A stretch of 64,000 bases of DNA from Pseudomonadota bacterium (lineage in GTDB: Bacteria; Pseudomonadota; Gammaproteobacteria; Steroidobacterales; Steroidobacteraceae): contig JAFEDS010000016.1 in the NCBI GenBank assembly GCA_018241505.1, forward strand, positions 496,001 to 560,000, read 5' to 3'. Each line of letters starts with the position of its first letter. The first letter of the stretch is position 1. Of the stretch, positions 10,134-45,235 are shown in pieces. A program made the translations under genes and the position numbers. The notes under the pieces are model-generated. The model was not told the origin of the DNA and did not search any database. It saw nothing but the letters and a program-made list of their open reading frames with translations.

Positions 10134-10145
10134 TTCGCACCAAAC

Positions 10146-13888: not shown

Positions 13889-13947
13889 GCAGCACTCTTG
13901 GCAACAACTAACGGTGCCGCACGACCTTAGGGGGTCGCAAACCAGGG

Positions 13948-13953: not shown

Positions 13954-13993
13954 TTACGGCGCCGGGTGACCCGGGTTGCCGGACGAAAGCGGA

Positions 13994-14009
13994 CTACCCG
14001 ATCGGGTAG
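13994..14009. promoter_or_regulatory. Perfect 16-bp palindrome upstream of hyuA2
   Basis: CTACCCGATCGGGTAG is fully self-complementary and lies in the 129-bp gap between the regulator gene and hyuA2. A 13/16 match stands at 10118-10133 in front of the TonB receptor operon at nearly the same distance from the start codon. It is a likely activator or repressor site rather than a terminator, because no T-run follows on either strand. Confidence 0.65.
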
Positions 14010-14017
14010 CGCGGCGG

Positions 14018-29615: not shown

Positions 29616-30737
29616 TCACTCGCCAAACTCGGCGCGAATCGCCGCGCCATGCTCATCCACTTCCGGCACGGGACGTGCCTGAGGCGCGGCTGAATCGAAA
29701 ATGGCTGCGGGGGCCACGACCCTCACTTCACCGCCCGGTGTCTCAACGCTCACGAAGCGCAGGTGCGGATGCTCCGCAGCCGCGGCAAGATCATTCAAGC
29801 GGCCATAGGCAATTCCCGCACGTTCCAACCGCTCGCACGCCCCGGATTCACTCAGGCCGGCAAAGACCCTTGCCGTCAATTCATCCAAAGCAGCACGATT
29901 CGCGACGCGGGCGGTGTTATCTCCGAAGCGGAGGTCCGCGGCAACTTCCGCGCTGCCGAGAAATTCCTCGCAGAATTTGCACCACTCGCGCTCGTTCTGT
30001 ACCGACAGAATGATTCGTTTGCCGTCCCGACACCGATACGCGCCATAGGGAGCGATGGTCGGGTGTGAGACGCCAGCACGCTGAACGGCTACGTCCCCGT
30101 ACAAATACTGCAACAGCGGAACATTCATCCAGTCCGCGACGCTATCGAACAGGGACACCTGGATCGACTTGCCGCGTCCCGTGCGCTCCCGTGCGAACAG
30201 CGCCTGAAGAATCGCTGAGTGGGCAGTCATGCCGGCGGCAATATCGCAAACTGAAACGCCAATGCGCGCCGGGCCGTCGGCAGTTCCGGTGATTGCACAC
30301 AGGCCAGTCTCACCTTGGACGATGAGATCGTACGCCTTCAATCCGGCGCGGGGACCCGTGTTTCCAAACCCGCTGATGTCGCAAGTGATGAGCCGGGAAT
30401 ACCGCTGCCGCAGTGACGCGGAATCCAGGCCCAGTTTCGCCAGCCTCCCCGGACGCAGGTTCTGCAAGAACACGTCCGCACGCGCGATCATCGATCCCAA
30501 CACCTTGCGGTCGGCAGCGGCCGCCAGATCGAGACACACCGATTCCTTGCCGCGATTCAACCATACGAAATAGGCGCTCTGTCCCAGTACGAGCCGATCA
30601 TAGCTGCGCGCGAAGTCGCCTCCCGCACGTTCTACCTTGATTACGCGTGCACCTGCATCGGCAAGCCGGCTCGATGCATAAGGCGCCGCGACGGCCTGCT
30701 CCAGCGCGACGACAGTGATGTTTTCAAGGTCTCTCAT
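29616..30737 (-). CDS. Class III CoA-transferase (CaiB/BaiF type)
   Basis: The 373-residue protein shows the family blocks VVALEQAVAAPYASSRLADA, GARVIKVERAGGDFAR, FVWLNRGKESVCLDL, DVFLQNLRPGRLAKLGL, ITCDISGFGNTGP and KSIQVSLFDSVADW, where the Asp of LFDS is the likely catalytic residue. It transfers CoA between carboxylic acids in the cytoplasm. The ATG at 30737 overlaps the stop codon of the methylaspartate ammonia-lyase gene by 4 nt. Because that enzyme produces mesaconate, the simplest reading is a mesaconate CoA-transferase that makes mesaconyl-CoA, as known from the methylaspartate cycle; this is inferred from context only. Confidence 0.85.
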   Translation of the reverse strand: MRDLENITVVALEQAVAAPYASSRLADAGARVIKVERAGGDFARSYDRLVLGQSAYFVWLNRGKESVCLDLAAAADRKVLGSMIARADVFLQNLRPGRLAKLGLDSASLRQRYSRLITCDISGFGNTGPRAGLKAYDLIVQGETGLCAITGTADGPARIGVSVCDIAAGMTAHSAILQALFARERTGRGKSIQVSLFDSVADWMNVPLLQYLYGDVAVQRAGVSHPTIAPYGAYRCRDGKRIILSVQNEREWCKFCEEFLGSAEVAADLRFGDNTARVANRAALDELTARVFAGLSESGACERLERAGIAYGRLNDLAAAAEHPHLRFVSVETPGGEVRVVAPAAIFDSAAPQARPVPEVDEHGAAIRAEFGE

Positions 30738-31993
30738 GCGCTCGCGGCTCGCGACCGCCCGGCCTGCCACTCCAACTGCCGAAGCAGGCGGCTCTGTTCA
30801 TTGCTAACGATCGAGAATCCCTCATCAACCCCCATTCCAGGTTTAGCGAGCATCATGTCGGCCTGCGTTGCAACTGCAACATGCACGGAGGCGCGAGCGG
30901 AGAGATCCGTCTCTGCGCAACTGCCGCCGACATACGCGCCCATTCCATGTCCTCGGCACGCAAGCACCGCCTCAATGCTATCCCCGAGCTCACCGACGTC
31001 CGGCATCTTGATTTGCGCAATGTGGCCTGCACGTGCAGCGGCGAACTCGCGTACATCCGCGAGTGTATTGCAACGCTCGTCGACCACAATGAGCGCATCG
31101 CTGCCACTGTGCTCGAGCGCCTCCACGAGTCTGGCATAGCCCTCGATCTGCGCAGCCCGCGAACCGAAGTCCGCGGGGCATTCGATGTGCAGCCTGAAGG
31201 GCGCAACGGCCTCGCCCAGCTCTGCGATGAACGCGGCAATCCGCGCCACATTGCAATCGAATGCAAATCCCATCCAGCCATAGACATCGAAGTGTAGCGT
31301 GGGGCGGTAGTCCCGCGCGCCAAAAGTGCGGACTCGCTCGGCCACCCACAGGACAAATTGCCGGAACGTCTCCCCGCCGGTGCCAAACTTCTCCGGGGCG
31401 TTGATCAATCCGTGCGGCAGGACATCCACCTGCTTCAGAATCATCTTGTCGACGTTGATTTCGCGCGCGTCCCCGCTCTGAGAGAAGATGGGGACGCGGC
31501 GGGCGACCAGGGGCAATCCATATTCGCTACAGATCAGCTCGGCCATCGTGCATCGGCGCGCGTGGCTCACAGCACGCAGCAATGCTTGACTCACGCCATA
31601 GCGAACAGCCAAGGGCACGTATGGTTGAGCGTCCGTCGGGGCAAAGACTGACGCACACGCTTCGCGGAAACCTTCCAAGCAAAGACCGCTCAAGCGCGGC
31701 CAGAGCAAGTCGCGAACAATCTGCTCGGCGGACGGTGGATCGAACAAGGGATCGCGTCCGCTCGCGCCTGAGTATTGCACGCTCATCATGTCGCCCCACA
31801 CGACCTCTCCATCGTTGAGGACGAGCCCAATGCCGAGTGATCGAGCTGGTGCCCTAATGGCCCGAAAGCCGGGAGTGACAGGCCGGCCAAGGTAGGCAAA
31901 GCCATTGAGAAGCGCTCCCGCACGTATCGCGGCCTGATCGTCGTAGAAAAATGCGCCGTGGCCCGGAGCGAAGATCACACCATCAACCTGCAC
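30734..31993 (-). CDS. mal: Methylaspartate ammonia-lyase
   Basis: The 419-residue protein belongs to the enolase superfamily and matches 3-methylaspartase: APGHGAFFYDDQAAIRAGA at the N terminus, VDVLPHGLINAPEKFG (catalytic His), the metal ligands in LHFDVYG, HIECPAD and IVVDERCNT, and the catalytic Lys in IAQIKMPDVGELGDS, then GGSCAETDLSA. It removes ammonia from threo-3-methylaspartate to give mesaconate. I start it at the GTG at 31993 because AGGAG lies 9 nt upstream and the family begins just before this point; the longer frame from 32056 would run deep into the amidase gene. It overlaps the amidase end by 11 nt and the CoA-transferase start by 4 nt. No glutamate mutase gene is present in the window. 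Confidence 0.92.
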   Translation of the reverse strand: MQVDGVIFAPGHGAFFYDDQAAIRAGALLNGFAYLGRPVTPGFRAIRAPARSLGIGLVLNDGEVVWGDMMSVQYSGASGRDPLFDPPSAEQIVRDLLWPRLSGLCLEGFREACASVFAPTDAQPYVPLAVRYGVSQALLRAVSHARRCTMAELICSEYGLPLVARRVPIFSQSGDAREINVDKMILKQVDVLPHGLINAPEKFGTGGETFRQFVLWVAERVRTFGARDYRPTLHFDVYGWMGFAFDCNVARIAAFIAELGEAVAPFRLHIECPADFGSRAAQIEGYARLVEALEHSGSDALIVVDERCNTLADVREFAAARAGHIAQIKMPDVGELGDSIEAVLACRGHGMGAYVGGSCAETDLSARASVHVAVATQADMMLAKPGMGVDEGFSIVSNEQSRLLRQLEWQAGRSRAASA

Positions 31994-33326
31994 TGCTCGG
32001 AACTCCTGGTAGGGGCGGACGACGGGCGTGCCAATCGGTCGAGGCCTGAAAGCCACGCGCGATTGCGAGCAACGTTATCTCGGAAAATGGGCGGCCGATG
32101 AGTTGCAACCCTACGGGAAGCCCCCGACGATCGCGGCCACAAGGAATCGACAGAGCCGGCATACCCAGATAGTTCACCCAACGGGTCCAGCGCGTCATAC
32201 GTCCAACGATTTCGGACGAACCGCCGAGTGCCGCCTCATCAGTCTCATCAATTGTTGGTACAGGCATACCGATAACCGGCAACACCAGCGCGTGAGCGTC
32301 GATTAGCGTCTCGGCAACAAACTGGCTCTGCAGCGATGATCGTTGAGCCGCCGCTGAGAGATAGGCCGTTGCCGTCACCCGTTGGCCCGGCTCGATCCGT
32401 TCGCGAATGTGCGGAGTATAGAGCTCGGGGCTCTGCGCGAGACGCACTGCGTGCACATGGGCCGCCTCCGATTGTTGGATCACATTGGCCAGCTCATGGA
32501 GCCGGGGAATATCAGGCAGCACAGCAGGCACGACCTCTGATCCGCAGGCAGCAAAGTGCCGAACGGCCTCCTCCAGCGCGCCGATGACCTCGCTGTCGCA
32601 ATCGCGAAGCAAGGACTCCCGCGGAAATGCCAGGCGCCCTGACTCAATTGACACCGCAGCGTCGGGCTCGATGTCCGGTTGGCGCTGACTCGCAGGGTCG
32701 CGCGGATCGGGCCCCGCAATCATGCGGAACAGGGTTTCGCACTCGGCTGCGCTACGCGCAAATGGCCCAACACAGTCGAGCGACGGAGCCAGCGGCATGA
32801 CGCCGGCAACACTGACACGCCCCTGCGTCGGTTTCAGGCCGACGACACCACAACAAGCTGCCGGGATACGAATCGAACCCCCGGTATCCGATCCCAGACT
32901 TCCGGCCACGATACCCGCCGCCACGGCTGCCGCTGGACCGCTGGACGATCCGCCACTGATTCGCGTACGGTCCCAGGGATTGCGGCAATGACCGAACACT
33001 GCGTTGTGCCCGGTGGGCCCGAGGGCGAACTCCGCCATGTTGAGTGTGCCGATGGCCACCGCGCCGGCGTGCTCCAGGCGCTCAATGACCGTCGCCGATC
33101 TGTCGGCGACCGGCTCGATGAAGCACGATCCGCAAGTGCTGGACCGGCCGCGCCGATCAAACATGTCTTTGTGCGCCAGCGCCATATGACCCGCGCCCCC
33201 GGCTGCGTCCAAAATACGCGCAGCGTCCAGGGCGCGCTCCCGCTCAATCGATATAAATGCGTTGATGGCGCGCTGCCATTGGGCCGCCGCGTCAAGGGCG
33301 TGAGCCACAGCCTCGAGCGTCGTCAT
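31983..33326 (-). CDS. Amidase signature (AS) family hydrolase
   Basis: The 447-residue protein has the Ser-cisSer-Lys amidase centre: the Lys in MALAHKDMFD, the block ISGGSSSGPAAAVAAG, and GSDTGGSIRIPAACCGVVGLKPTQGR. AS enzymes cleave amides, carbamates or C-terminal amides. The ATG at 33326 overlaps the stop of the transporter gene by 4 nt; the longer frame upstream lies inside that gene. Family members range from GatA to nylon- and ureido-amide hydrolases; the protein is not GatA by context, because no gatB or gatC is near. In this operon it may cut an amide bond to release an acidic residue for the next enzyme. Confidence 0.88.
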   Translation of the reverse strand: MTTLEAVAHALDAAAQWQRAINAFISIERERALDAARILDAAGGAGHMALAHKDMFDRRGRSSTCGSCFIEPVADRSATVIERLEHAGAVAIGTLNMAEFALGPTGHNAVFGHCRNPWDRTRISGGSSSGPAAAVAAGIVAGSLGSDTGGSIRIPAACCGVVGLKPTQGRVSVAGVMPLAPSLDCVGPFARSAAECETLFRMIAGPDPRDPASQRQPDIEPDAAVSIESGRLAFPRESLLRDCDSEVIGALEEAVRHFAACGSEVVPAVLPDIPRLHELANVIQQSEAAHVHAVRLAQSPELYTPHIRERIEPGQRVTATAYLSAAAQRSSLQSQFVAETLIDAHALVLPVIGMPVPTIDETDEAALGGSSEIVGRMTRWTRWVNYLGMPALSIPCGRDRRGLPVGLQLIGRPFSEITLLAIARGFQASTDWHARRPPLPGVPSSAG

Positions 33327-34591
33327 GGCATCCGCGCTCCGAGAGTTTGTTTGCGACCCGCGATGATGATGGCTACAGCAGCAGCCGCAGCGAGCACGGC
33401 GACCCCCGCGAAATACCAGGGCGTGGGTACTCGGCCCCAAAGCTGAGCCAACACTCCCGCGCCCGCAAAGCCCGCCGCGAGAGTCACGAACCAGAGGCTC
33501 ACAAACATGGTCATTGATCTGACCGATGCGAATCTCAGCAGGAACGCCTGCCCGATGGCATCGAAATACAGCTCACCCACCGTGAGAAAGAACAGCGCAA
33601 TGAACAACCACGCCGATGGAACTGGCGTTGTGTACATCTGTGCGGCAATGGCGACGATGACAAAGGACACTGTCAGCAGGATCGCTCCGGTCCTCAACTT
33701 ACGCAGCTCGCCTGCGGCGCCGCTCGCCCCACCACGCCGCGCCCACCACCAGTTGATGAGCGGCGTGCAACACACAATGATGATCGGGTTCACCGACTGA
33801 AACCAGGCCGCCGGAATATACAGCCCGGCGCCGCCGACGGTAATTCGCCGATCGACGGCTGACTCGGCCCATAAGGCAATGGTCCCACCCTGCTGGCCAT
33901 GCGCTGTCCAAAACAGCACGGCTCCCAACAGCACGAGTGCCAGTTGAGCGATGAGCGCGGCGCGATTCTGCGGTGCCGAGCCCCGGTCGATGCCCGCCGC
34001 GCCGCGGAAATCGGCTTCAACCAGGTAGCGGCGGCAAGCCAGGAAAATTACCGAGGAAATGACCATGCCGATGCCGCAGAGCGCGAGCGCCGCGCTCCAA
34101 CTCCACGCCGTTCCCACAATCCCCGTGACAATCGGCGCAAAAATCGCCGCCCCGTTGCAACCGGCCTTGTAGAGGGTGAAGGCTCGATCGCGCGCAGGTT
34201 CATTGGTGTCATAAAGACGATTCATCTGCGCAACGAGCGAGGGTTTGAACAAGCCATTCGACACGGTGAGCAGCGCCAGCGCCGGGAAAAGCAACTGAGG
34301 CACCACCAGCAGCAGATGGCCCGCGGCCATGCCAAGGGCGCCACAGATCACGGCGCGCTGAACACCCAACCAACGATCGGCAACGACTCCGCCCACCAAT
34401 GACATGGCCATCGCGGCCGACGTCGACAGCGAATACACCTGGATCGCCGAAACCGGGCTGAATGCAAGATCCTGGGTGAGGTAGAACACGAGCACGGATC
34501 GCATACCGAACAGCGCGAATACTTCCCACATGCCCGTCAGGATGACCACCAGCAGCCCCGCGGGGTGACCGCCAATTCGGGGCTGATTCAC
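33323..34591 (-). CDS. POT/PTR2-like peptide transporter (MFS), altered ExxER motif
   Basis: The 422-residue membrane protein has about 12 hydrophobic segments and POT-type features: FGMRSVLVFYLTQDLAFS in helix 1, VGGVVADRWLGVQRAVICG and GNGLFKPS-like SNGLFKPSLVAQMNRLYD. POTs bring di- and tripeptides in with protons. The family motif ExxERFxYYG reads GMWEVFALFG here, so the first Glu and the Arg are replaced. The GTG start at 34591 is chosen because GAGGA lies close upstream and the aminopeptidase stop is 1 nt away; the longer frame lies in the aminopeptidase gene. It follows the aminopeptidase gene and precedes the amidase gene. Confidence 0.83.
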   Translation of the reverse strand: MNQPRIGGHPAGLLVVILTGMWEVFALFGMRSVLVFYLTQDLAFSPVSAIQVYSLSTSAAMAMSLVGGVVADRWLGVQRAVICGALGMAAGHLLLVVPQLLFPALALLTVSNGLFKPSLVAQMNRLYDTNEPARDRAFTLYKAGCNGAAIFAPIVTGIVGTAWSWSAALALCGIGMVISSVIFLACRRYLVEADFRGAAGIDRGSAPQNRAALIAQLALVLLGAVLFWTAHGQQGGTIALWAESAVDRRITVGGAGLYIPAAWFQSVNPIIIVCCTPLINWWWARRGGASGAAGELRKLRTGAILLTVSFVIVAIAAQMYTTPVPSAWLFIALFFLTVGELYFDAIGQAFLLRFASVRSMTMFVSLWFVTLAAGFAGAGVLAQLWGRVPTPWYFAGVAVLAAAAAVAIIIAGRKQTLGARMP

Positions 34592-34592
34592 G

Positions 34593-36068
34593 CTAATCCT
34601 CGTAGTTGTCCGCGACCCAGCGATTGAGCAACCGAACGCCAAAGCCGCGTGCGCCATCCGGAACGGTCGGAAATGTTGACGGACTCGGCCACACGGTCGG
34701 CGTGATATCCAGGTGAGCCCACGGCACCCCGTTCACAAAGCGCTGGACAAAGAGCGCCGCAACAATCGCGCCCCCCGCGGGCTCACCCAAATTCTTCAGG
34801 TCCGCGACTGTGCTGTCGAGTTGATTCTCGAGGCGTCGCGACAACGGCAATTGCCACAGCAGCTCATCCTCCGCCTTGCCGGCTTCCACTAGGCTCGCCG
34901 CAATGGCGGCGGTATTTGAGAAAAGCGCTGCATACTCGACCCCGAGCGCCACCTGGGAAGCACCGGTCAGTGTCGCGAGGTCCACCATGACGCGCGGCTC
35001 GAATCGATTCTGGCAATACCACAACGCATCGGAGAGCACCACGCGTCCCTCGGCATCGGTGCTGATGATCTCGATCGTCTGCCCCGACATGCTGGTGATC
35101 ACATCGGCTGGCCGCTGAGCCTGGCCATCCGGCATGTTCTCTACGAGCCCGAGAATTCCCACCGCGTTTACGCGGGCACGGCGCCCGGCAAGCGCATGCA
35201 TGACTCCCGCGACGGCGGCCGCGCCCGCCATGTCCCATTTCATGCTGTCCATGTTCTTGCCGGCCTTCAGGGTCAGTCCGCCGGAGTCGAAGCACACGCC
35301 TTTGCCCACGAATGCGAGCGGGGCCTGCCCTTCGGGGCCGCCGTCCCAGCGCACGACCAAGAGTTGGCTTTCACGCCGGCTGCCCTGCCCTACGCTCAGC
35401 AGCGCGTTCATGCCGAGCTCCGTCAACTGCTTTTCACCGAGGACCTCGACAACCAAGCCCAGGCGTTCCAACGCCTGCACGCGCCGCGCGAATTCAGCGG
35501 GGTACAAAATGTTGGGGGGCTCTGAAATGAGGTCGCGACTGAATGCAATCGCATCCGCGAGCGATGCCCACGCCGTGTGAGCAGCGCGGGCACGTCCGGG
35601 GTCCCGGGTGTTCACTTTCACCACCTGAATAGAGGGCTGCTTTTCAGGCTTGCCCGTGGTCCGATACCGGTCGAATCGGTACGCCGCGAGTTGCGCGCCG
35701 AATGCCGCGCGCGCGGCATTCTCCGGACTCGCATCCCCAACAAAGAGCTCGAGCTTCCGCACGCCGGAAGTTAGCAACGCCTTCACTGCGTAGCCGGCGA
35801 AGCTTTCCAATGCGAGCCCCTCGTCTTCCCCCCGAGGGCCAACGCCGACCAGCACGATACGCGCTGCTTTGATGCCCGCCGGTGCCAGGATTTCGAGGAC
35901 CTCTCCCTGTGCGCCCTTGAAACGAGCTGTCTCCAGCGCGCGCTGGACGGCGCCGCGAGCCGGGCCTTCCAGAGTGGAGACATCCACTTGCCCTTCGTGA
36001 AAGAACAGCGCTCCGGCGGCATCGTGAGCCGCGGACTCCAGTGAATCGGATCCGAATTCAATCTGCAT
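34593..36068 (-). CDS. M17 leucyl aminopeptidase-like enzyme
   Basis: The 491-residue protein has the M17 C-terminal catalytic domain: VGKGVCFDSGGLTLKAGKNM (metal-binding Lys and Asp), the MKWDMAGAAAVAGVMHAL block, IEIISTDAEGRVVLSDALWY (family signature NTDAEGRL) and VDLATLTGASQVALG. M17 enzymes remove N-terminal residues in the cytoplasm with two metal ions. The start is the ATG at 36068 (MQIEFGSDS); a longer frame runs through the operator. It is the first gene of the operon with the POT transporter, amidase, methylaspartate ammonia-lyase and CoA-transferase genes, and its promoter carries an extended copy of the GntR-type site. This location suggests a special catabolic rather than a housekeeping role. 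Confidence 0.9.
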   Translation of the reverse strand: MQIEFGSDSLESAAHDAAGALFFHEGQVDVSTLEGPARGAVQRALETARFKGAQGEVLEILAPAGIKAARIVLVGVGPRGEDEGLALESFAGYAVKALLTSGVRKLELFVGDASPENAARAAFGAQLAAYRFDRYRTTGKPEKQPSIQVVKVNTRDPGRARAAHTAWASLADAIAFSRDLISEPPNILYPAEFARRVQALERLGLVVEVLGEKQLTELGMNALLSVGQGSRRESQLLVVRWDGGPEGQAPLAFVGKGVCFDSGGLTLKAGKNMDSMKWDMAGAAAVAGVMHALAGRRARVNAVGILGLVENMPDGQAQRPADVITSMSGQTIEIISTDAEGRVVLSDALWYCQNRFEPRVMVDLATLTGASQVALGVEYAALFSNTAAIAASLVEAGKAEDELLWQLPLSRRLENQLDSTVADLKNLGEPAGGAIVAALFVQRFVNGVPWAHLDITPTVWPSPSTFPTVPDGARGFGVRLLNRWVADNYED

Positions 36069-36080: not shown

Positions 36081-36102
36081 TATAATCGTTAATCGTTTTA
36101 AC
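36081..36102. promoter_or_regulatory. Putative GntR operator, extended copy before the aminopeptidase operon
   Basis: ATAATCGTTAAT at 36082-36093 differs in one base from the consensus ATTATCGTTAAT, and ATCGTT is then repeated (ATCGTTAATCGTTTTA). It lies 13 nt upstream of the aminopeptidase ATG on the other strand. The same extended form stands before the TonB receptor gene at 43663-43680. Confidence 0.65.
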
Positions 36103-36116
36103 AAGCATCTCAGGAA

Positions 36117-36130
36117 TTTATACGCCATTC
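36117..36130 (-). promoter_or_regulatory. Candidate -10 region of the aminopeptidase operon, shared with the TonB receptor promoter
   Basis: The plus strand reads TTATACGCCATTC at 36118-36130, and TTATAAGCCATTC stands at 43678-43690, 12 of 13 bases identical. On the minus strand each gives GAATGGC followed by a base and TATAAA, a good -10. No clear -35 is visible here. Confidence 0.5.
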
Positions 36131-36162
36131 AAGACGTTTTTCATGCAGAAAGCGTGGTATAT

Positions 36163-36174
36163 ATTAACGATAAT
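36163..36174. promoter_or_regulatory. Putative GntR operator before the alpha/beta hydrolase gene
   Basis: ATTAACGATAAT is the exact reverse complement of ATTATCGTTAAT. It lies 18 nt upstream of the hydrolase ATG, just after a possible -10 (TATATT at 36160-36165) and over the expected transcription start, which would suit repression. Confidence 0.65.
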
Positions 36175-36192
36175 CTGTACCCAGGAGACCCC

Positions 36193-37515
36193 ATGAGACT
36201 GTGCACCTTGCTGATGGGCAGCCTGTTCTGGCTGGCGGCGAACGCGGCGTTCGCCAACGAATCGCCCCGTTGTTTTGTAGGCGCCTACAAGGATACCGAC
36301 GGACGAGTCCTGTCCCTGCAAGCTACGGCGGACGACTCGTTGCGCTTCTTTTTGCTGGATGGAAGAACCGGGCTGTTGCGCAGGCAACCCGATGGGGTGA
36401 CCTACACCGCGGGTCCCGGCCTGAGTGACTCGCAGCCGGTCGTGGCACGCGCCCGGCTGGAAGCTTGCGGAGCCGCTTCAATTGACTTCGAGCTGCAGAA
36501 CGGACCCGGCGGACACTGGCACAAGGTACCGCTCGAGGTCGAAGACACGACCTTTTCATCCGGCGATGTGCGGCTGAAAGGCCGATGGGTCCGGCCGGCC
36601 GGGCAACAGGCAGCGCCGACGCTGGTTTTTGTGCACGGTTCCGGGGCAACGGCCTCGATCGATTCCGTGGTATGGCAGTGGCTGCTACCGGCCGAAGGCG
36701 TCGGCGCCTTCGTGTTCGACAAACGCGGTACCGGCGCCTCGACGGGTGAGTTCACGCAGAATTTCGAGATCCTGGCGCAGGATGTCGATGCGGCTGTTCG
36801 TACGGTGCGACGCCTCGGCGAGCGGCGGATCAGCCGCCTCGGCGTCGCCGGTTTCAGCCAGGGCGGCTGGATCGCACCGCTGGCCGCAACCCAGGTGCCG
36901 GTGGATTTCGTGGTCGTGGGTTTCGGTGTCGCCGGCTCACCTGTGGATCAGGACGTCTGGCAGGTCGCATACCAACTCAAACAAGACGGCTTCGGCGCCG
37001 CCGAATTGGCCCAGGCCGCCCAGGTCACCAGCGCAACCGGGCGGTTCATGTTGAGCAACTATCGCCACGGACTCGATGCGGTCAATGCGCTCAAAAGGAA
37101 GTTCGCCGGCGAGCCCTGGCTCGATAAAATCGACGGCCAATACTCGGGCGTTGTGCTCCAGGGCGATATCGAACGGGCCAAGCGCGAAAGCCCGGGTGTA
37201 ATCTGGAACTATGACGCGATGCGCGTGCTGCGCTCGGTAAAGGTGCCGCAGTTGTGGATCATGGGCGCGGCCGACTCGGTTGCACCCAGCGCACCGAGCA
37301 TTGAGCGGCTCAAAACGCTGCAGCGCGAGCATCGGCCGATTGATATCGCGATATTCCCCGATACCGATCACGGCATCTACGAATTCAACACGGGACCGGA
37401 TGGCAAGCGACACAACACCCGGGCGGCGGACGGTTATCTGCGCCTGCAAATCGATTGGATCAAAGGCCACCTGCACGAGCCGTACGGACGCGCGGAGTTG
37501 ATTCGACATCCATGA
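36193..37515 (+). CDS. Exported alpha/beta hydrolase
   Basis: The 440-residue protein has a signal peptide (CTLLMGSLFWLAANAAFA), a beta-rich N-terminal domain to about residue 130 and an alpha/beta hydrolase domain with the oxyanion region VHGSGATASID, the nucleophile elbow GFSQGGW (Ser), an Asp in WIMGAADSVAPS and a His in FPDTDHGIYEF. It probably cleaves an ester, amide or peptide bond in the periplasm; serine-aminopeptidase and dienelactone-hydrolase relatives share this layout. AGGAG at 36183-36187 precedes the ATG at 36193. The stop overlaps the start of the threonine aldolase gene (ATGA), and the promoter shares the GntR-type site. Confidence 0.85.
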   Translation: MRLCTLLMGSLFWLAANAAFANESPRCFVGAYKDTDGRVLSLQATADDSLRFFLLDGRTGLLRRQPDGVTYTAGPGLSDSQPVVARARLEACGAASIDFELQNGPGGHWHKVPLEVEDTTFSSGDVRLKGRWVRPAGQQAAPTLVFVHGSGATASIDSVVWQWLLPAEGVGAFVFDKRGTGASTGEFTQNFEILAQDVDAAVRTVRRLGERRISRLGVAGFSQGGWIAPLAATQVPVDFVVVGFGVAGSPVDQDVWQVAYQLKQDGFGAAELAQAAQVTSATGRFMLSNYRHGLDAVNALKRKFAGEPWLDKIDGQYSGVVLQGDIERAKRESPGVIWNYDAMRVLRSVKVPQLWIMGAADSVAPSAPSIERLKTLQREHRPIDIAIFPDTDHGIYEFNTGPDGKRHNTRAADGYLRLQIDWIKGHLHEPYGRAELIRHP

Positions 37516-38564
37516 GTACACGGTTGCGAAACGACTTCGCCTCGGACAACACGGCAGGAATAGCACCGGAGGCCATGCGCGCGCTCATTGAAGCCAACAC
37601 CGGCTTCGAGGCGGCTTATGGCGCGGATCGGACTACGGCGCGCGCGGCAGACCTGGTCCGCACCTGGCTGGATGCCGATGCACCCGTTCACTTCGTAAGC
37701 TGCGGTACGGCGGCCAATGCCGTGTCAATCGGCGCGATGTGCCGTTCTTTCGAGACTGTGCTCGCGCACCGATATGCTCATACGATTCATTCGGAAGCGG
37801 GAGCACCCAATGCGTTCGGGCACGGACTATCGATCCGTGCACTGGATGGGAACGATGGCAAGATCTCCACGGCCGCACTCGAAGCCGCCCTGCGCGTGCC
37901 GGAAGATCCGAGTCGGCAACCACCCGCCGTGCTTTCCATTGCCAATGCGACCGAGCTGGGGACGTTGTATCGGGAGGACGAGCTGCGCTCATTGGTTGAA
38001 GTAAGCAAGGCGCGCGGGCTTGCGGTTCATGTGGACGGCGCGCGGCTCGTCAACGCCGTTGCCGCGGGATTCGATCCCCGCTCGCTTCGGCAACGGGGCG
38101 TCGATGTGCTGGTGATTGGTGGCACGAAGGCAGGCATGCCTGCGAGCGAGGCCATCGTCATCTTCGAGCCGCGCATCGCCCATCGCTTCGACGTCAGGCT
38201 GAAACAGGCCGGGCAAGTGATCTCGAAGAGTCGATTTCTGAGCGCGCCGTGGCTCGGCCTGTTGAGCTCCGGGCGTTGGATCGAGCTTGCCGCGCACGCG
38301 AACGCCATGACCCGCCGTCTTGCGACGCTCATGCCATTCGAGATCGTCTATCCGGTAGAAACGAATGCGATCTTTGTGCGCATGGATACCGCCACACATC
38401 GGCACCTGACTCAGCTCGGTTGGGTGACACATCGACTGGCGGAAGCATCCGTGCGCTTCATGTGCTCGTGGGCAACGACTGAGGACAGTGTCGATGAGCT
38501 CGGCGCGGTATTGGCCCGCCTGGCTGCCGAAATCGACAAACCATCGAGGCCTGTGCCAGAATGA
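37512..38564 (+). CDS. Low-specificity threonine aldolase family enzyme
   Basis: The 350-residue PLP enzyme has the beta-eliminating lyase/threonine aldolase pattern: RNDFASDNTAGIAPEAMRAL at the start, FVSCGTAANAVSI, HIHSEAGAPN-like TIHSEAGAPNAFGHG, the cofactor Asp and His in LAVHVDGARLVNA, and the Schiff-base Lys in VIGGTKAGMP. It splits beta-hydroxy amino acids into glycine and an aldehyde. It is coupled to the hydrolase gene by a 4-nt overlap. The TSDN motif typical of the family is ASDN here. A beta-hydroxy residue released from a peptide is a plausible substrate. Confidence 0.88.
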   Translation: MSTRLRNDFASDNTAGIAPEAMRALIEANTGFEAAYGADRTTARAADLVRTWLDADAPVHFVSCGTAANAVSIGAMCRSFETVLAHRYAHTIHSEAGAPNAFGHGLSIRALDGNDGKISTAALEAALRVPEDPSRQPPAVLSIANATELGTLYREDELRSLVEVSKARGLAVHVDGARLVNAVAAGFDPRSLRQRGVDVLVIGGTKAGMPASEAIVIFEPRIAHRFDVRLKQAGQVISKSRFLSAPWLGLLSSGRWIELAAHANAMTRRLATLMPFEIVYPVETNAIFVRMDTATHRHLTQLGWVTHRLAEASVRFMCSWATTEDSVDELGAVLARLAAEIDKPSRPVPE

Positions 38565-38572
38565 CCCAGTCG

Positions 38573-38584
38573 ATTATCGATTAT
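38573..38584. promoter_or_regulatory. Putative operator before the GntR gene
   Basis: ATTATCGATTAT matches the 12-bp consensus ATTATCGTTAAT at 10 positions and is close to a perfect palindrome. It lies 14 nt before the GntR start codon in a gap of only 34 bp, as expected for autoregulation. Confidence 0.55.
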
Positions 38585-38598
38585 TTCCTGGGGCGAAC

Positions 38599-39330
38599 AT
38601 GAAGGTCGCCGACACTTCGCGACTGAGCGCATCGGAATTCGTTGCAGACACCTTGCGCAGAGAAATTCTGCGCGGCGAGATCCTGCCCGGACAGCCACTT
38701 CTGCAGGACCATATCGCGGCCCGCTTTGATGTGAGTCAGAGCTCCGTGCGCGAAGCCTTGCGCCGGCTCGAAGCCCAGGCGCTCGTCACTTCAATCCGCA
38801 ATCGCGGTACGTTTGTCTCGACACTGACCGTCGACCAGGTTGAGGAAATGTACGATATCCGCCTGGCCGTTGAGCTGATCGGTCTGCGGCACAATCTTCC
38901 CGCTCTCAGCGCCGAGCAGCTCGCGGAAGCCGAAGCGCTGCTCGTGTCCATGGAGGAAGATCCGGAAACGGCGTTCTTCCTGGGCGAGTCGCACAAGAAG
39001 TTTCACGCTATTTTCTATGCGAGCGCCGAGCGCAAGCTGTCGCGTGACATCCTGCAGAACATTTACGGCAACCTCACGCGGCTGTGGGTGGACTTCATCC
39101 GGAAAAAACCCGCGCTGGCACGCCGCTACGAGGAAGATTCCCGCCACGAGCACCGCGAGCTTCTGCAAGCTGCCAAAACGCGCAATCTTGCGAAGGCGGA
39201 AGCGGTGCTTGCACGTCACATCAACAGCGCACGCGAGCTGTTGACAACCCATCTGAGACGAGTCGAAGCGGACGCCGGCAAAGAATCAGCGACCCCGCGG
39301 CGGACACGCCAGGCAGGCTCGGCTTCCTGA
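38599..39330 (+). CDS. GntR-family regulator with FCD domain
   Basis: The 243-residue protein has an N-terminal winged helix (ADTLRREILRGEILPGQPLL, then ARFDVSQSSVREALRRLEAQ and RNRGTFVSTLT) and a C-terminal FCD effector domain with candidate metal ligands: Asp in MYDIRLAVEL and His in SHKKFHAIF, RHEHRELLQ and VLARHINSA. FCD proteins bind carboxylic or amino acids and are mostly repressors. The ATG at 38599 gives the family length. Its own promoter and four others between 36081 and 43767 carry a common 12-bp element, so it is the natural candidate for controlling this region. Confidence 0.9.
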   Translation: MKVADTSRLSASEFVADTLRREILRGEILPGQPLLQDHIAARFDVSQSSVREALRRLEAQALVTSIRNRGTFVSTLTVDQVEEMYDIRLAVELIGLRHNLPALSAEQLAEAEALLVSMEEDPETAFFLGESHKKFHAIFYASAERKLSRDILQNIYGNLTRLWVDFIRKKPALARRYEEDSRHEHRELLQAAKTRNLAKAEAVLARHINSARELLTTHLRRVEADAGKESATPRRTRQAGSAS

Positions 39331-39379
39331 CGGTGATTCGGACGCAGTCGGTGGTTCGAACGCATCCAGCGATCCGCGC

Positions 39380-40729
39380 TCACAACACCGGGTCGGGCAA
39401 CTCCACCGCGTCCAGGCTGTAGTGCACGTTTGGAAAACGGGTCCTCAAGGCGCGTACTTCCGCCGCGAGGCCTGCCGCGGCAGTCCCGTCCGCGTCCAGC
39501 GAGGCCTGCCGGATCAAGTTGGCGATTTGGCGCATCTCGGGTTCTCCCATACCCAATCGCGAAATCTCATGTGTCCCCAGGCGCGCGCCACTGCGCCGCC
39601 CAGCGGCAACATCGCCACTCAACGCGCAATCCGGAATGAGAATGTTCGCATTCTGACATCGCCACTCGAAGTTGGCGGCGTGGGCTCCGAGCTTTAAAAA
39701 CACCTGATGAGTCGCGGTTCGCTCACCCCGCCGGCCCAGGACCGTAAAGCCCGCGTCATCTAAGTATGCCGCCAGCGCCTGAGCATTCCCGACCATCCGC
39801 TGCGCAAGCTCGGCGCCACAGCTCTCCAGCTCGGCCAGGGTCATCGCCAGAGCGGCGAGCTTGTTTTGATCGCGTGTCTGCACAAATCCCGGAAACATCA
39901 GACGCGTGATTCGCGCCGCAATCTTCGAATCATTGCTTAGGATGAGCCCACCCACCGGGCCGCCCATGATCTTGTGGGTACTGACGGTAACAACATGCGC
40001 CCCCTCTTCCAGGGGGCGCTGAAAGTCGCCCGCGGAAATCAACAATCCGACGTGCGCTGCGTCATACACGAGAATCGCACCGACCCGATCGGCGACGGCG
40101 CGCAACTCACGCAATGGATACGGAAACAACACCTTGCCGCCGCCGATGACAATCATCTTCGGTTGTACACGCTGGGCGATGCGGTCGACTGCAGCGGGGT
40201 CGATTTCGAATGTGTCCCCCGATGGGGGAATGCTCACCACTCGATTCGTTACGAGGCCGGCCGGCCCGCTCGGCTGGTAGGCATAGTTTCCCCCGGCATC
40301 GAGATCCTGCGCCAGCAGCGTATCCCCCTGCTCGAGTAACGCAAAAAACACCGCGGCATTCGCCATCGAGGTGCTGGTTGGCCGCCACTCGCAGAACCGG
40401 GCGCCGAACTGCCGGCGCGCGAGCGCGATAATCATGGCCTCGATTTCGTCAATGAGCTCATTCTGGCGGTAGTGGGGAAACTCCTTGTCGCCCGGCAAGC
40501 CTTCGGTCACACGGGTTGCCATGTCACTGGCGAGCAGCCGCAGACTGCGCTCGGACATGAGCCCCTCCGCCGGGTTCATGTTCAAACATTCCCGGCCGCG
40601 CCACTGCTCGTGCCGGCTCACCAGGCTCATGACCCGCGAGGCCAGTGCAGGCGGCGACCACCCCTGCATGCTCGACTCGACCTCGCGCAGGTACTGCGCC
40701 GACTTGTCAGTGAATGCGTCCTCCTCCAT
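39380..40729 (-). CDS. SHMT-like PLP enzyme (fold type I)
   Basis: The protein of about 449 residues resembles serine hydroxymethyltransferase: LNMNPAEGLMSERSLRLLAS, FPHYRQNELIDEIE, PTSTSMANAAVFFALLEQGD, the cofactor Asp in ILVYDAAHVGLLIS and the PLP Lys in VSTHKIMGGPVGGLIL. It differs much from GlyA, so it may act on an alpha-substituted serine or as an aldolase instead of serving one-carbon metabolism. GAGGG in the sequence that also holds the receptor stop codon precedes two ATGs (40735 and 40729); the second has the better spacing. It is the second gene of the TonB receptor operon and so probably belongs to the same catabolic set. Confidence 0.75.
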   Translation of the reverse strand: MEEDAFTDKSAQYLREVESSMQGWSPPALASRVMSLVSRHEQWRGRECLNMNPAEGLMSERSLRLLASDMATRVTEGLPGDKEFPHYRQNELIDEIEAMIIALARRQFGARFCEWRPTSTSMANAAVFFALLEQGDTLLAQDLDAGGNYAYQPSGPAGLVTNRVVSIPPSGDTFEIDPAAVDRIAQRVQPKMIVIGGGKVLFPYPLRELRAVADRVGAILVYDAAHVGLLISAGDFQRPLEEGAHVVTVSTHKIMGGPVGGLILSNDSKIAARITRLMFPGFVQTRDQNKLAALAMTLAELESCGAELAQRMVGNAQALAAYLDDAGFTVLGRRGERTATHQVFLKLGAHAANFEWRCQNANILIPDCALSGDVAAGRRSGARLGTHEISRLGMGEPEMRQIANLIRQASLDADGTAAAGLAAEVRALRTRFPNVHYSLDAVELPDPVL

Positions 40730-40741
40730 GCCCATCTTCCC

Positions 40742-43639
40742 TCAGAACTGGTACGTCGCACCGGCAAAGAACTGCCGTCCAATGTCATAGGTACCCGGAA
40801 ACGTGTTCGCGAAGCCAAAAATAAAGGCGGACGCAATGTTCCGCGACACCTGTGGGGGCGATTTGTCGAACAGGTTGTTGATGCCGATGCGCGCGCCGAA
40901 ATGAGAATCGATCTGCCACGAGCCGCTAAAGTCGAAGTACGAGCGTGCACCGATCTGGTGGTCCGGCGGATCCGTCACCTTGCCCGAGATGCGATCCTCG
41001 TCCAGGACCACGCTGCCAACGTAGCGCCAGCGCAGGGACAGTGGCAGCGACGAGATGGGAGACCACGTCAGGCGTGTTGATGCCCGCCAGTGCGGAACGG
41101 GCTGGCCACAGGTCAGACCGTAAGTGCCCGCACAATAATATTCAGGCAGCGTCTCATTGGCCTGCGTCGTGTACGTGCCCACATAGGCAGCCTTCGAGCT
41201 GAGCGAGATCGGACCTGCGACATAGTCGAGTGCATAGTCGATACCCGAAACCCGGATGAACCCTATGTTCTCATTCAACAGCGAAATGTACCCCACCGAG
41301 CCGTTATGCCCCCCGGTGTACACATCGCCGGCCGCGCTGCGACGGATGCTGCGGCAGAATATATTGTTGGGGTCCTGAGTTGGATTCTCACCGGCACCGG
41401 TTCCGTAGCAGCCGTCGAGTATCGGTTGTGCATCTGTTCCCAGAGTCGAGATGGCACCCTTCACTTTGATGTCGTAATAGTCGAGTGAGAGCGAGAGGCC
41501 TGGGGTAAACCTCGGTGTCAGCGCAATCCCTACTGTCTTTGAGTCAGACACTTCCAGTCCAAGCAACGGATTGCCGCCGGTGAACACTCGGCAAGTACCG
41601 CTCGGGCATTGAAGGTTCGCATTGCCGTATGCCGCAGCGGGAACACCGGTGCTTTGGCACAGCGAGGCAGAAGCCGTTGGACCGCTCGTTCCGTTGGAAA
41701 AGCAGGGATCCACTCCATTCGCTGACTGCGGCTGGGCCGCGGTAAACAACTCCCCGATGTTCGGGGCACGCACGGCACGCTCAAAGGCACCTCGAAAGCG
41801 AATATCGCGCACCGGGCGCCAACTACCGCCGTACTTGTACGTGTTGGCACGGCCCGCAAGGTTGTAGTGCGAACTGCGATAGCCGCCTTCCAGCTCGAGC
41901 GACTCGATCCAGGGTTTGCTCTCGACGAGCGGAATGCGCGCCTCCATGAATACTTCGGACACGTGGTAGGCGCCGCTGAGAGCCGGAATCGATCCGTACA
42001 CCACGTTGTCGCCGACGCTGAGCGCGTCATCCGGCGTGTACTTCGATGTTTCGCGACGATATTCGCCGCCGAGCGCCACGCCGACGGCGCTGTCGGCCAA
42101 GGGACTCTTGACCCCGATCCCACCCAGATCGCCGAACACCGAACCTGTAGTCACAACCTGCGTCGTGGTGGAACCGGCGCGCTGCGTCAACTGAAAGAAG
42201 CGCACCTGTTCCGGCGTAATGGCGCCGCTCGCCGCGGTAAAGATGTCGATCGGCACGCAGCCGTTGGATGGGTCGATACACGTGCCGTCCGGATTGACGA
42301 GCAAGCCCTGCCGGAAGCGGCCCGGCGAAATGTCGCCCACCAACTCCTGCTGCCATCGCGTCTCACCGTACTGAGTTGACACGTCGTAGCTGAAGTGAGA
42401 CCCGAGCGCGCCAGTCAGACCGGAGATAAACTGCAAGGTGTCGTAGACGTTGTGCTCGCCGATGTTGCCGTTGGCGAGGATTGACTTACGCAGGGTGAAG
42501 TCCGTTGTGTCATTCGCGGTGAAGGTGCCGTTGCCGAAGAGAACCGACCGTTCCTGGTTCGACAACAACGGGTTACCGTAGTTGACTGAGACGGTATCCA
42601 GAAATCCCGCACCGTCGGACACCTGCCGGTCGACCTTGTTCTCGGAGTAGGTGCCGCGGAAATACACGCTGGCCCACGGCGCGGCATCGTAGTGACCCAT
42701 GAGTCCCAGTGAAATGCGCTGTTGTGGGACGACGAGGTACTGGGTCCGCGAAGAGTCATAAACGCTGCCGTCGTAAGGTACGAGCTCGCGGTTTCCATTG
42801 AACATCGTGCCGGAGTCGGTCACGCGGCCGGCCGGGATCGTCCCGCTGCCGAAGGGCACCAGGGAGGTACCGTTTGATATCAATTGGGGTGACGCCCAAT
42901 CGCGATCGCGGCGATACACGGGATCGCGCTGGGTGAACCCGGCAAAGGCCGTGAGATTACCCTGCCCGTTCGCGAAGTCCGCGCCCGCGAGCAGGCTGGA
43001 ATCGAAACTGCGGCCGTCGCCGGGGCTGTACGCACCGTACTGCGCATCCGCCTGAAATCCCTTGAAGTTCTTCTTCAGGAGAATGTTCACAACACCCGCG
43101 ACAGCGTCAGCGCCGTACACCGCAGACGCGCCGCCGGTTACCACGTCGACGCGATCGATCATTCCGGTCGGAATGATGTCGAGGTCGACGTTGCCCTTGC
43201 TGTCGGATGAAACACTTCGCTTGCCATCAATCAGCACGAGGGTGCGCTGCGGCCCGAGATTGCGCAGGTTGGCGGAGGTGTCGCCGTTGCCGTTGTTATT
43301 TGTCGTCGCCCCACGTCCTGGAAAGGCCTCGGGAAGATCGCGCAGGACGGCCTCCACGTTGATGGCTCCGGTGGTGCGGATCTCTTCAATGCCGGTAGAG
43401 GTGATGGGGCTGATGCTTTCGAGCTTGGTGGACGTGGAACGGATGTGCGATCCGGTCACAACGACCTGTTCGATCTCAGTAGCCGATTTCGCGGCACTGT
43501 CCGTGCCTTCAGCGCTGGCGGCGACTTGTGCCGAAGCGGGCCCGGTCAACAGCAGGCCGAGGCACGCAACGGCGGACAGGATTGGGGCGGCTGAACGGAA
43601 TTGGGCACTGTGCAGACTCGTCGCGTATGCGGCTCGCAT
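40742..43639 (-). CDS. Large TonB-dependent outer-membrane receptor
   Basis: The 965-residue protein has an N-terminal export signal (SAAPILSAVACLGLLLTGPA then SAQ), a TonB-box-like IEQVVVTGSHIR, a plug with NLRNLGPQRTLVLIDGKR and VDVVTGGASAVYGADAVAG and a long barrel ending in AGATYQF. The pattern GSRIR...RNLG...RTLVLxxGRR is typical of receptors for bulky organic substrates such as oligosaccharides and peptides in Xanthomonas-, Sphingomonas- and Steroidobacter-like bacteria. AGGGGG lies upstream of the ATG at 43639. It shares its operon with the SHMT-like gene and its promoter with the divergent amidohydrolase gene. Confidence 0.93.
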   Translation of the reverse strand: MRAAYATSLHSAQFRSAAPILSAVACLGLLLTGPASAQVAASAEGTDSAAKSATEIEQVVVTGSHIRSTSTKLESISPITSTGIEEIRTTGAINVEAVLRDLPEAFPGRGATTNNNGNGDTSANLRNLGPQRTLVLIDGKRSVSSDSKGNVDLDIIPTGMIDRVDVVTGGASAVYGADAVAGVVNILLKKNFKGFQADAQYGAYSPGDGRSFDSSLLAGADFANGQGNLTAFAGFTQRDPVYRRDRDWASPQLISNGTSLVPFGSGTIPAGRVTDSGTMFNGNRELVPYDGSVYDSSRTQYLVVPQQRISLGLMGHYDAAPWASVYFRGTYSENKVDRQVSDGAGFLDTVSVNYGNPLLSNQERSVLFGNGTFTANDTTDFTLRKSILANGNIGEHNVYDTLQFISGLTGALGSHFSYDVSTQYGETRWQQELVGDISPGRFRQGLLVNPDGTCIDPSNGCVPIDIFTAASGAITPEQVRFFQLTQRAGSTTTQVVTTGSVFGDLGGIGVKSPLADSAVGVALGGEYRRETSKYTPDDALSVGDNVVYGSIPALSGAYHVSEVFMEARIPLVESKPWIESLELEGGYRSSHYNLAGRANTYKYGGSWRPVRDIRFRGAFERAVRAPNIGELFTAAQPQSANGVDPCFSNGTSGPTASASLCQSTGVPAAAYGNANLQCPSGTCRVFTGGNPLLGLEVSDSKTVGIALTPRFTPGLSLSLDYYDIKVKGAISTLGTDAQPILDGCYGTGAGENPTQDPNNIFCRSIRRSAAGDVYTGGHNGSVGYISLLNENIGFIRVSGIDYALDYVAGPISLSSKAAYVGTYTTQANETLPEYYCAGTYGLTCGQPVPHWRASTRLTWSPISSLPLSLRWRYVGSVVLDEDRISGKVTDPPDHQIGARSYFDFSGSWQIDSHFGARIGINNLFDKSPPQVSRNIASAFIFGFANTFPGTYDIGRQFFAGATYQF

Positions 43640-43662
43640 GGTCGCATCCCCCTGGACAACTA

Positions 43663-43683
43663 ATTATCGTTAATCGTTTATAA
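43663..43683. promoter_or_regulatory. Putative GntR operator, extended copy, overlapping the TonB receptor -10
   Basis: ATTATCGTTAAT at 43663-43674 is an exact consensus copy and runs on into a second TCGTTTA. On the minus strand TATAAA (43677-43682) with TTGCCT 17 bp further up makes a plausible promoter, so a bound repressor would cover the -10. Confidence 0.65.
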
Positions 43684-43755
43684 GCCATTCCAGAGCTGTA
43701 GGCAAGTGTTCAAGCTTCGTATATGGGGTATTCTGGCCGTGGGCGTTCTTTTCGG

Positions 43756-43767
43756 ATAAACGATAAT
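43756..43767. promoter_or_regulatory. Putative GntR operator overlapping the amidohydrolase start codon
   Basis: ATAAACGATAAT is one base from the reverse complement of ATTATCGTTAAT. Its last two bases are the first two of the ATG at 43766, so the regulator would sit over the start of the gene. Confidence 0.6.
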
Positions 43768-45235
43768 GAAGCGATGGTTTCCCGTTACGTGCTTCGGGGT
43801 ACTGCAGACGATCGTCGGCGCAGCCGTGGCGTCGCCCTCTGCCCCTCTCGTCATTCGTGATGTCTCTGTAATTGATGTAAAGACGGGCACCGTCGCTACC
43901 CACCGAACGGTGCGAATTGCTGACTCACACATCGTGGCGATCATCCCTACAGCGGCGGAAGCTTACGAGCCGAAGTCCGCACAGGTCATCGATGGTCGCG
44001 GCCGATTTCTTGCCCCCGGTTTCACCGACATGCATGCGCACCTCAACAGCCGGATCGAGGCACGCGAGAAATCGCCGCTGCTGACGCTGTCGGATGAAGA
44101 CATCCTCTCCATTCATCATCTCGCGGCATTCCTATACAACGGCGTGACCACACTTCAAGTCATGCATGGAGACGAAGGGATGCTGGCCCTGCGCGACGCG
44201 ATCTCGCAAGGTGCGCAGGTCGGGCCCCAACTGGTCGTCGGCTCTCCCCGGCTCGACGGAAATCCACCGAGCGGACCGTATCCGCGCATCGTAGGGTCAG
44301 CCGCCGAGGGGTTGGCGGTTGTCGATGAGATGCACGCGGCGGGTTACGATTTCATCAAGGTCTACGATCGGCTCGGCGCCCCGGCCTACGATGCAATCGT
44401 CACTCGTGCACATTCATATGGAATGAGAGTGGATGGCCATCTCCCGCGAACGCTGCCACTCGAACACGCGCTGCATGGCATGCAGGACCATGTTACGCAT
44501 GCCGAAGAGTTTGTGGCCTACTCACACGACTTCAGCGATGCCGACATCGCACGCATCACCAAAGAGGTAAAGGAGTCAGGTATCGGCGTCACGCCGACCC
44601 TGACCGTGTTCAAGAACGTCCTGCGGTCTGTGAAGGATCTGAGAGAGGTGCTCGCAGCGCCGGAGATCCGATACGCCGACCCCCTCGTCTTTCATGCCTG
44701 GCTCCCAGAGCGCAATCCGTATCGCTCGGAGCGCTTCCAGGCACCTTCGGTCCGTGCCGCCCTGACCCGGCAGTTCGAATTCATGAAGAAGCTGGTGCTT
44801 GCATTCCAGCGCGCCGGGGTGCCGCTGGTCATTGGCACCGACTGCAACATCTCCGGGACCGTCGCCGGCTTCTCGGTCCCCGAGGAAATGCAGGAAATTG
44901 CCGGGCTCGGTATTTCGGCGGCGGATGTGCTTCGCATGGCCACTCTGAACGCCGCAGTGGCCTTACGCATGCAAACAGACCTCGGCACGGTTGAACCGGG
45001 CAAACGAGCTGACCTGGTGCTGCTGGAGCGAAATCCGCTCATGCATATCGCCAATGTGCGTGGCATTGCCGGTGTTGTCGTCCGCGGGCGTTGGTATTCA
45101 CACACTGACCTGCAGCGCGCGCTCGATGGGGCGACACAGGCCTTCAGCCGTCTCGATGAGCGGCTAAGAACCCGCCAGACTCGCACCGACACACAGCGCC
45201 GCAATCAGAATGGGCGGGGTCCTGAGTCTCTGTAG
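43766..45235 (+). CDS. Exported metal-dependent amidohydrolase
   Basis: The 489-residue protein has a signal peptide (RWFPVTCFGVLQTIVGAAVA) and an amidohydrolase TIM barrel: the metal pair FTDMHAHLNS, a carboxylated-Lys candidate in YDFIKVYDRLG, His in MRVDGHLP and HVTHAEEF, Asp in VIGTDCNISGT, and the C-terminal TDLGTVEPGKRADLVLLERNP. Relatives are annotated as imidazolonepropionase-like or Xaa-Pro/cyclic-imide hydrolases; the protein probably cleaves a peptide or cyclic amide in the periplasm. The last 72 nt run antisense to the end of the chromate-transporter gene, so the C-terminal tail (rich in Arg and Gln) is likely dispensable. It is divergent from the TonB receptor gene. Confidence 0.85.
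   Translation: MKRWFPVTCFGVLQTIVGAAVASPSAPLVIRDVSVIDVKTGTVATHRTVRIADSHIVAIIPTAAEAYEPKSAQVIDGRGRFLAPGFTDMHAHLNSRIEAREKSPLLTLSDEDILSIHHLAAFLYNGVTTLQVMHGDEGMLALRDAISQGAQVGPQLVVGSPRLDGNPPSGPYPRIVGSAAEGLAVVDEMHAAGYDFIKVYDRLGAPAYDAIVTRAHSYGMRVDGHLPRTLPLEHALHGMQDHVTHAEEFVAYSHDFSDADIARITKEVKESGIGVTPTLTVFKNVLRSVKDLREVLAAPEIRYADPLVFHAWLPERNPYRSERFQAPSVRAALTRQFEFMKKLVLAFQRAGVPLVIGTDCNISGTVAGFSVPEEMQEIAGLGISAADVLRMATLNAAVALRMQTDLGTVEPGKRADLVLLERNPLMHIANVRGIAGVVVRGRWYSHTDLQRALDGATQAFSRLDERLRTRQTRTDTQRRNQNGRGPESL

Follow-up and report, generated by a model that had tools for sequence, protein, structure and literature searches.

What controls a cluster of peptidase, transporter and amino-acid-lyase genes that surrounds a GntR regulator gene in a gammaproteobacterium of the family Steroidobacteraceae (assembly GCA_018241505.1)? 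The window, that is, the whole stretch of DNA analysed here, covers 64,000 nucleotides of contig JAFEDS010000016.1 (positions 496,001 to 560,000) and has a G+C content of 61%. Within it, a 12-bp element, ATTATCGTTAAT, recurs in exact or near-exact form at five gene starts, one of them that of gntR itself, and an earlier note on this DNA had proposed that these copies define a local regulon. The regulon reading is supported, because the exact words are confined to the cluster and the sites lie at the five gene starts. To judge from the letters, the five sites are very probably operators of the cluster's own FCD-type GntR protein, which would act as an autoregulated repressor.

All five 12-bp sites were recovered with the coordinates, letters, strands and mismatch counts originally reported, and each stands at or just before the start of the gene or operon assigned to it (the aminopeptidase operon, the alpha/beta-hydrolase gene, gntR, the TonB-receptor gene and the amidohydrolase gene). 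The extended site in both divergent regions (ATCGTTAATCGTTT at 36085-36098 and 43666-43679) and the element TTATA[CA]GCCATTC common to them (TTATACGCCATTC at 36118-36130, TTATAAGCCATTC at 43678-43690) were confirmed as well. For three of the five, a tandem repeat with a 7-bp period, TCGWTWA followed by TCGWTT (36086-36098, 38570-38582 and 43667-43679), is the better description; the remaining two are single copies, and every unit forms an imperfect palindrome of the ATTATC/GATAAT kind. The candidate operators and the shared element, here written GAATGGC[GT]TATAA, are arranged as follows.

36082 to 36100, plus strand: candidate operator A, tandem, ATAATCGTTAATCGTTTTA, 14-32 nt before the ATG of the M17 aminopeptidase gene at 36068 (minus strand).
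36118 to 36130, minus strand: shared element, copy 1, in the aminopeptidase upstream region.
36163 to 36174, minus strand: candidate operator A', single, ATTATCGTTAAT on the minus strand, overlapping a promoter-like -10 and separated by 18 nt from the alpha/beta-hydrolase ATG at 36193.
38569 to 38585, plus strand: candidate operator B, tandem, GTCGATTATCGATTATT, between the aldolase stop and the gntR ATG at 38599.
43663 to 43681, plus strand: candidate operator C, tandem, ATTATCGTTAATCGTTTAT, 24-42 nt before the TonB-receptor ATG at 43639 (minus strand) and overlapping TATAAA.
43678 to 43690, minus strand: shared element, copy 2, in the TonB-receptor upstream region.
43756 to 43767, minus strand: candidate operator C', single, ATTATCGTTTAT on the minus strand, overlapping the amidohydrolase ATG at 43766.

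The occurrence of the five sites far exceeds chance. When up to two mismatches to the 12-mer were allowed, the window gave 10 strand-matches at seven distinct places (three of the seven are near-palindromic and so are counted on both strands), against a mean of 1.24 and a maximum of 4 in 100 shuffles of the same sequence. The two places beyond the five sites, 34586-34597, which spans the M17 stop inside the open reading frame (ORF) of a POT-family transporter, and 63173-63184, the start of an ORF at 62132-63184, were taken as chance matches. Across the whole 7.88-Mb genome, exact ATTATCGTTAAT is found twice, both times in the cluster, against 0.02-0.10 copies expected for the genome from Markov models. 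With up to one mismatch there are nine distinct places, four of them in the cluster; of the other five, one is the promoter of an RND operon, three lie under a predicted ORF (L009, L007 near a doubtful start, and L008 in a doubtful antisense frame) and one, L003, has no long ORF over it. The exact tandem TCGWTWATCGWTT, a pattern defined post hoc from the sites themselves, has three genomic copies against an expected 0.74-0.91, all three within the 7.7 kb of the cluster. One-mismatch versions of the tandem occur at 23 places elsewhere, and the six inspected all fall under predicted ORFs (a marginal one at L029). The many random copies inside coding regions that the earlier note had named as grounds for abandoning the regulon were thus not encountered, the exact words being confined to the cluster, with six of the 23 outside tandem places inspected. 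A global regulon was rejected, since the exact words appear nowhere else in the genome.

Repeats of this kind could also arise if promoter-region DNA had simply been copied by duplication, without any regulatory role, and the presence of both TTATA[CA]GCCATTC and the extended site in the two divergent regions is what such copying would leave behind. We regard this origin as very improbable: the genes flanking the two regions come from unrelated families, the spacing between the shared elements differs from one region to the other (as read from the unaligned regions), and the site before gntR is a variant that retains the same tandem plan.

The placement of the sites bears on how they might work. 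In the aminopeptidase upstream region the shared element may hold the promoter core (TATAAA), and a scan for sigma-70-like promoters returned one match in the first divergent region and none in the second. Because the sites are located at or over -10-like sequences and, in one case, a start codon, their positions fit occlusion of the polymerase. Some FCD regulators act as activators, and the cluster GntR might accordingly be an activator or a dual regulator, an option that the sparse promoter predictions leave some room for. We nevertheless consider it unlikely, given that sites which overlap or follow -10-like sequences, one of them reaching into a start codon, agree better with occlusion than with activation. 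Under repression, a GntR dimer would bind half-sites centred on TTATCG that lie at, or immediately downstream of, four operon promoters and that of gntR, and would block transcription until an inducer releases it. By analogy with other FCD proteins the inducer may be a small carboxylate that probably arises when an imported peptide is degraded. The three tandem operators would be the strong ones, serving the aminopeptidase operon, the TonB-receptor operon and gntR, and the two single copies weaker ones for the other plus-strand genes. Divergons in which each operon has a nearby site of its own are known from the family (PMC4494728).

Within the cluster, gntR is the one regulator gene found, and its product carries a GntR winged-helix domain (PF00392, 65.5 bits, cut-off 27) and an FCD ligand-binding domain (PF07729, 53.2 bits, cut-off 24.3). 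The recognition helix of this protein, VSQSSVREAL, has Gln where Arg is commonest; all five relatives of solved structure for which alignments were shown have Arg in this column. Counted from the conserved REAL motif, the column would correspond to Arg45 of FadR, the residue that contacts G, and Gln as a rule prefers A (PMC4494728). According to the same source, typical FCD operators contain TKGT/ACMA boxes; the pattern is not universal, BioR and NanR being named as exceptions, and the correlation analysis there omitted regulators that depart from the TKGT consensus. None of the five cluster sites has paired TKGT/ACMA boxes: the usual FCD operators read TTGT..ACAA and the cluster sites are TTAT..ATAA-like. 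We suggest that the operator takes this form because Gln replaces Arg at the Arg45 position, through a presumed contact between Gln and A.

Support for such a pairing came from the same genome, in which we counted 23 FCD matches; three of those with a readable helix have Gln at this position (the reading excludes L037/L038 and L043, where no confident call could be made). Two matches of identical score near contig ends, G000:C14:220602-220973 and G000:C17:5995-6366, suggest a duplicated contig end; the assembly has a contamination value of 5.67 and, at 7.88 Mb, exceeds in size the same-genus genomes listed (2.2-6.9 Mb). The second Gln-type FCD GntR (VSQAPIREAL) is encoded by the last gene of the RND operon (L055, G000:C8:386000-405900, 9316-15850), after genes for an AcrB-family protein, a HlyD-type protein and an outer membrane efflux protein. 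The only exact copy of the palindrome ATTATCGATAAT in the genome, embedded in GGATTATCGATAATCC, lies 34 nt before the first RND gene.

This palindrome leaves a footprint in relatives. Orthologs of the RND regulator were detected at a threshold of 1e-25 in 12 of the 217 family genomes, our own included. Among the stretches retrieved from the other 11, the RND promoter is covered in five and the exact palindrome is present in all five; in another five the contig ends before the promoter, and in G136 TTTATCGATAAT occurs about 0.5 kb before gntR instead. We then searched 45 whole genomes, comprising the 12 with an ortholog and 33 of the 205 without one, the latter chosen for completeness of at least 90%. 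Exact ATTATCGATAAT was present, once each, in nine of the 12 ortholog genomes (eight of the 11 other than our own) and in none of the 33 (Fisher p 2.5e-7), and all nine copies are upstream of an RND gene. The three ortholog genomes that lack it are G136, G120 (74% complete) and G141 (83% complete). The attribution of the window sites to the cluster GntR, which had previously been inferred from the position of gntR and from its own site, therefore gains support from the Gln-type helix and from a Gln-type relative linked to ATTATCGATAAT.

A different regulator encoded elsewhere could still read the sites, with gntR merely one of its targets. No ortholog of the cluster GntR in which co-inheritance with the sites could be followed was found in the family and order genomes searched, and the imperfect symmetry of the window sites leaves room for another reader. 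We judge this improbable, because the confinement of the exact words to the cluster makes a global regulator unlikely and because relatives link a near-identical palindrome to a second Gln-type FCD GntR. Control by the cluster's own GntR remains the preferred explanation.

A third Gln-type FCD paralog in the same genome (VSQMPVREAL, L056, G000:C7:168000-187000) has likely a second local regulon. Its 19-kb region contains three TATCGN5CGATA sites (9076, 11329 and 13725), located between gntR and a gene for an FAD-oxidase of the DAO family, after a TonB-receptor gene and before that same TonB-receptor gene; in 40 control loci (124 kb) no match at the N5 spacing was as good, and one falls one base short. 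Beyond this genome, homologs of the RND regulator occur in 537 plasmid records, 13 of which were opened. At the four plasmid loci beside bioB or bioY, every protein has an FCD domain and a His-type helix ([AST]SHVPVREA), and three have TTATCTATAA in the 3.6 kb seen. One plasmid Arg-type has ATTGTCGACAAT and another TTTGTATACAAA, and a Nonomuraea Gln-type FCD gene is immediately preceded by TTATCGATATCGATAA. Not every one of the 13 plasmid loci fits: the His-type L131 additionally holds TGGTCTGACCA, and the His-type L125, beside bioB, has no TTAT..ATAA box in its stretch; the Arg-types L134 and L130 show palindromes of other kinds.

A scan of helix type against upstream motif covered 74 loci, from which 16 were dropped for want of a clear helix (one of these, L128, is by eye an Arg-type with ATTGTCGACAAT), leaving 58 to be scored (27 Arg, 18 His, seven Gln and six others). 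A full TTAT..ATAA directly before the gene was found in 9/18 His-types, 0/27 Arg-types and 0/7 Gln-types, and a full GT..AC-type motif in 6/27 Arg-types and 1/18 His-types. His and Gln types together differ from Arg types with p = 4.8e-7, a value that must be read with caution as the His helices appear to form a single group (BioR) and the counts are non-independent. Tentatively, and with the balance tilted against it, the Arg45 position might be a natural specificity switch, with Arg directing recognition of TTGT..ACAA and Gln or His that of TTAT..ATAA, and the Gln-type protein in the window ruling an island for a peptide containing 3-methylaspartate and beta-hydroxy residues. If this were true, the operators of uncharacterised FCD regulators could be predicted from the protein alone; the pairing of helix and operator suggests a simple rule for many members of the family with no known operator.

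Several observations weigh against these interpretations. Immediately upstream of gntR the seven scored Gln-types favour neither motif (mean difference 0.0), and two Gln-type groups, one in genomes G065 and G182 and the other a Rhodococcus plasmid gene, have no TTAT..ATAA palindrome in the stretches seen. The spacing at L056 was chosen post hoc, and other spacings give four perfect control matches (three of TATCGATA and one with six bases between the halves). The ortholog genomes of the RND regulator are related, so that nine of 12 against none of 33 are not independent events, and G120 and G141 are incomplete. The symmetry of the cluster sites themselves is imperfect, and dimers do not usually bind with the geometry of a 7-bp tandem. 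Finally, no orthologous cluster was found in the sets searched, which leaves the window sites without a footprint of their own. At 1e-30 the cluster GntR matched nothing in the remaining 216 of the 217 family genomes; it had three matches besides itself in 396 order genomes (31-34% identity) and two loci in genome_contigs (31-33%), both titled spirochaete metagenome-assembled genomes. The serine hydroxymethyltransferase (SHMT)-like protein of the cluster likewise matched none of those 216 family genomes at 1e-80, and in 369 class genomes it had two matches at 37-38% plus a paralog in its own genome. By eye, the gene set of the cluster was not seen in the neighbourhoods of these GntR and SHMT-like matches; one of them, L016, has several peptidase-like genes around its GntR.

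The genes that would come under this control are the following.

29616 to 30770, minus strand: family III CoA-transferase.
30734 to 32056, minus strand: methylaspartate ammonia-lyase.
31983 to 33440, minus strand: amidase-signature hydrolase (ORF).
33323 to 34657, minus strand: POT-family oligopeptide:H+ symporter (ORF).
34593 to 36068, minus strand: M17 leucyl aminopeptidase, first gene of the minus operon.
36193 to 37515, plus strand: alpha/beta hydrolase, S33/S15-like, with an N terminus that resembles a signal peptide by eye.
37455 to 38564, plus strand: L-threonine-aldolase-like pyridoxal-phosphate (PLP) enzyme (ORF; likely start about 37512).
38599 to 39330, plus strand: gntR, FCD-type GntR regulator with the recognition helix VSQSSVREAL.
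39380 to 40735, minus strand: SHMT-like PLP enzyme.
40742 to 43639, minus strand: TonB-dependent receptor.
43766 to 45235, plus strand: amidohydrolase, Amidohydro_1 family, Xaa-Pro dipeptidase-like.

The methylaspartate ammonia-lyase scores 557.5 bits against the equivalog TIGR01502 (cut-off 286.15), has 1kcz as its closest solved protein (E 1e-104) and keeps the QSGD, LPH, QIK and DE motifs, which we take to be those of the active site. The CoA-transferase reaches 195.8 bits against the mesaconate CoA-transferase model NF041294, below its cut-off of 700, and is thus identified only as a related family III transferase; it probably acts on the acid made by the lyase. The closest solved relatives of the two PLP enzymes are the L-threonine aldolase 5vye (5.7e-76) for the aldolase-like protein and the SHMT 4uqv (8.8e-60) for the SHMT-like one. 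The SHMT-like paralog elsewhere in the genome (37% identity; L024, G000:C11:68000-87900, 11034-12359) adjoins, by eye, a dioxygenase-like gene and a LysR-like regulator. Together, the genes suggest that a peptide containing 3-methylaspartate and beta-hydroxy amino acids is taken up and degraded. The methylaspartate enzyme led us to consider microcystin or another named peptide as the substrate; a literature search of titles and the beginnings of abstracts gave no supporting paper, and we make no such claim. Our best reading is that the aminopeptidase, POT permease, amidase, lyase, CoA-transferase, aldolase-like enzyme, SHMT-like enzyme, TonB receptor and amidohydrolase would answer to a single switch. 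What began as a repeat noticed by eye is now a local regulon with good support. It brings together under one control the parts of an unusual catabolic route (peptide uptake, peptidases, methylaspartate ammonia-lyase and aldolase-like enzymes), so that the substrate of this route can be tested by growth and induction.

Elsewhere in the window, two hydantoinase A/B gene pairs flank a TonB-receptor-like ORF (4047-13888), the pair at 4047-7768 being confirmed by domains and that at 10146-13888 being alike by eye. A predicted tRNA-Arg (ccg) at 28476-28565 lies inside overlapping ORFs for an M20-family peptidase-like protein and an Lrp/AsnC regulator and may be a false call.

Among known systems, FadR of E. 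coli, which controls the fatty-acid regulon, has a GntR winged helix followed by an all-helical ligand domain and belongs to the same subfamily as the cluster GntR, from which it differs in having the G-contacting Arg45 (PMC4494728) in place of Gln. AlkR of Pseudomonas aeruginosa, an FCD GntR of the VanR group, represses from a palindromic operator, ATTGTCAGACAAT, that lies over -10 regions, the repression being relieved by a ligand, and its Arg45 matters for DNA binding (PMC12042122). AlkR combines Arg45 with GT/AC boxes, whereas the cluster protein combines Gln, at the presumably equivalent position, with AT/AT boxes and peptide-catabolism genes; in the cluster site ATTATCG..., A occupies the place of a G in the AlkR operator. 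A literature search with the site words gave no paper on a GntR regulator among the titles listed. The RND-operon regulator is Gln-type like the cluster GntR, but serves an efflux operon from a single perfect palindrome rather than from tandem imperfect ones. A parallel in operator form is BioR, the alphaproteobacterial biotin regulator and likewise an FCD GntR, whose box is TTATMKATAA (PMC4494728) and which has palindromes in front of bioR and tandem boxes in front of bio operons (PMC4554459). TTATCGATAA, the palindrome associated with the RND Gln-type, fits the BioR box literally, and the cluster sites depart from this palindrome at one or two positions. The loci linked to bioB or bioY have His in the helix, where the cluster GntR has Gln, and no biotin genes were found among the cluster proteins scanned. 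As far as the sequences allow, the cluster is best compared to a BioR-like system in which an FCD GntR with Gln instead of His would act on AT-box operators, here placed over an uncommon peptide-catabolism island.

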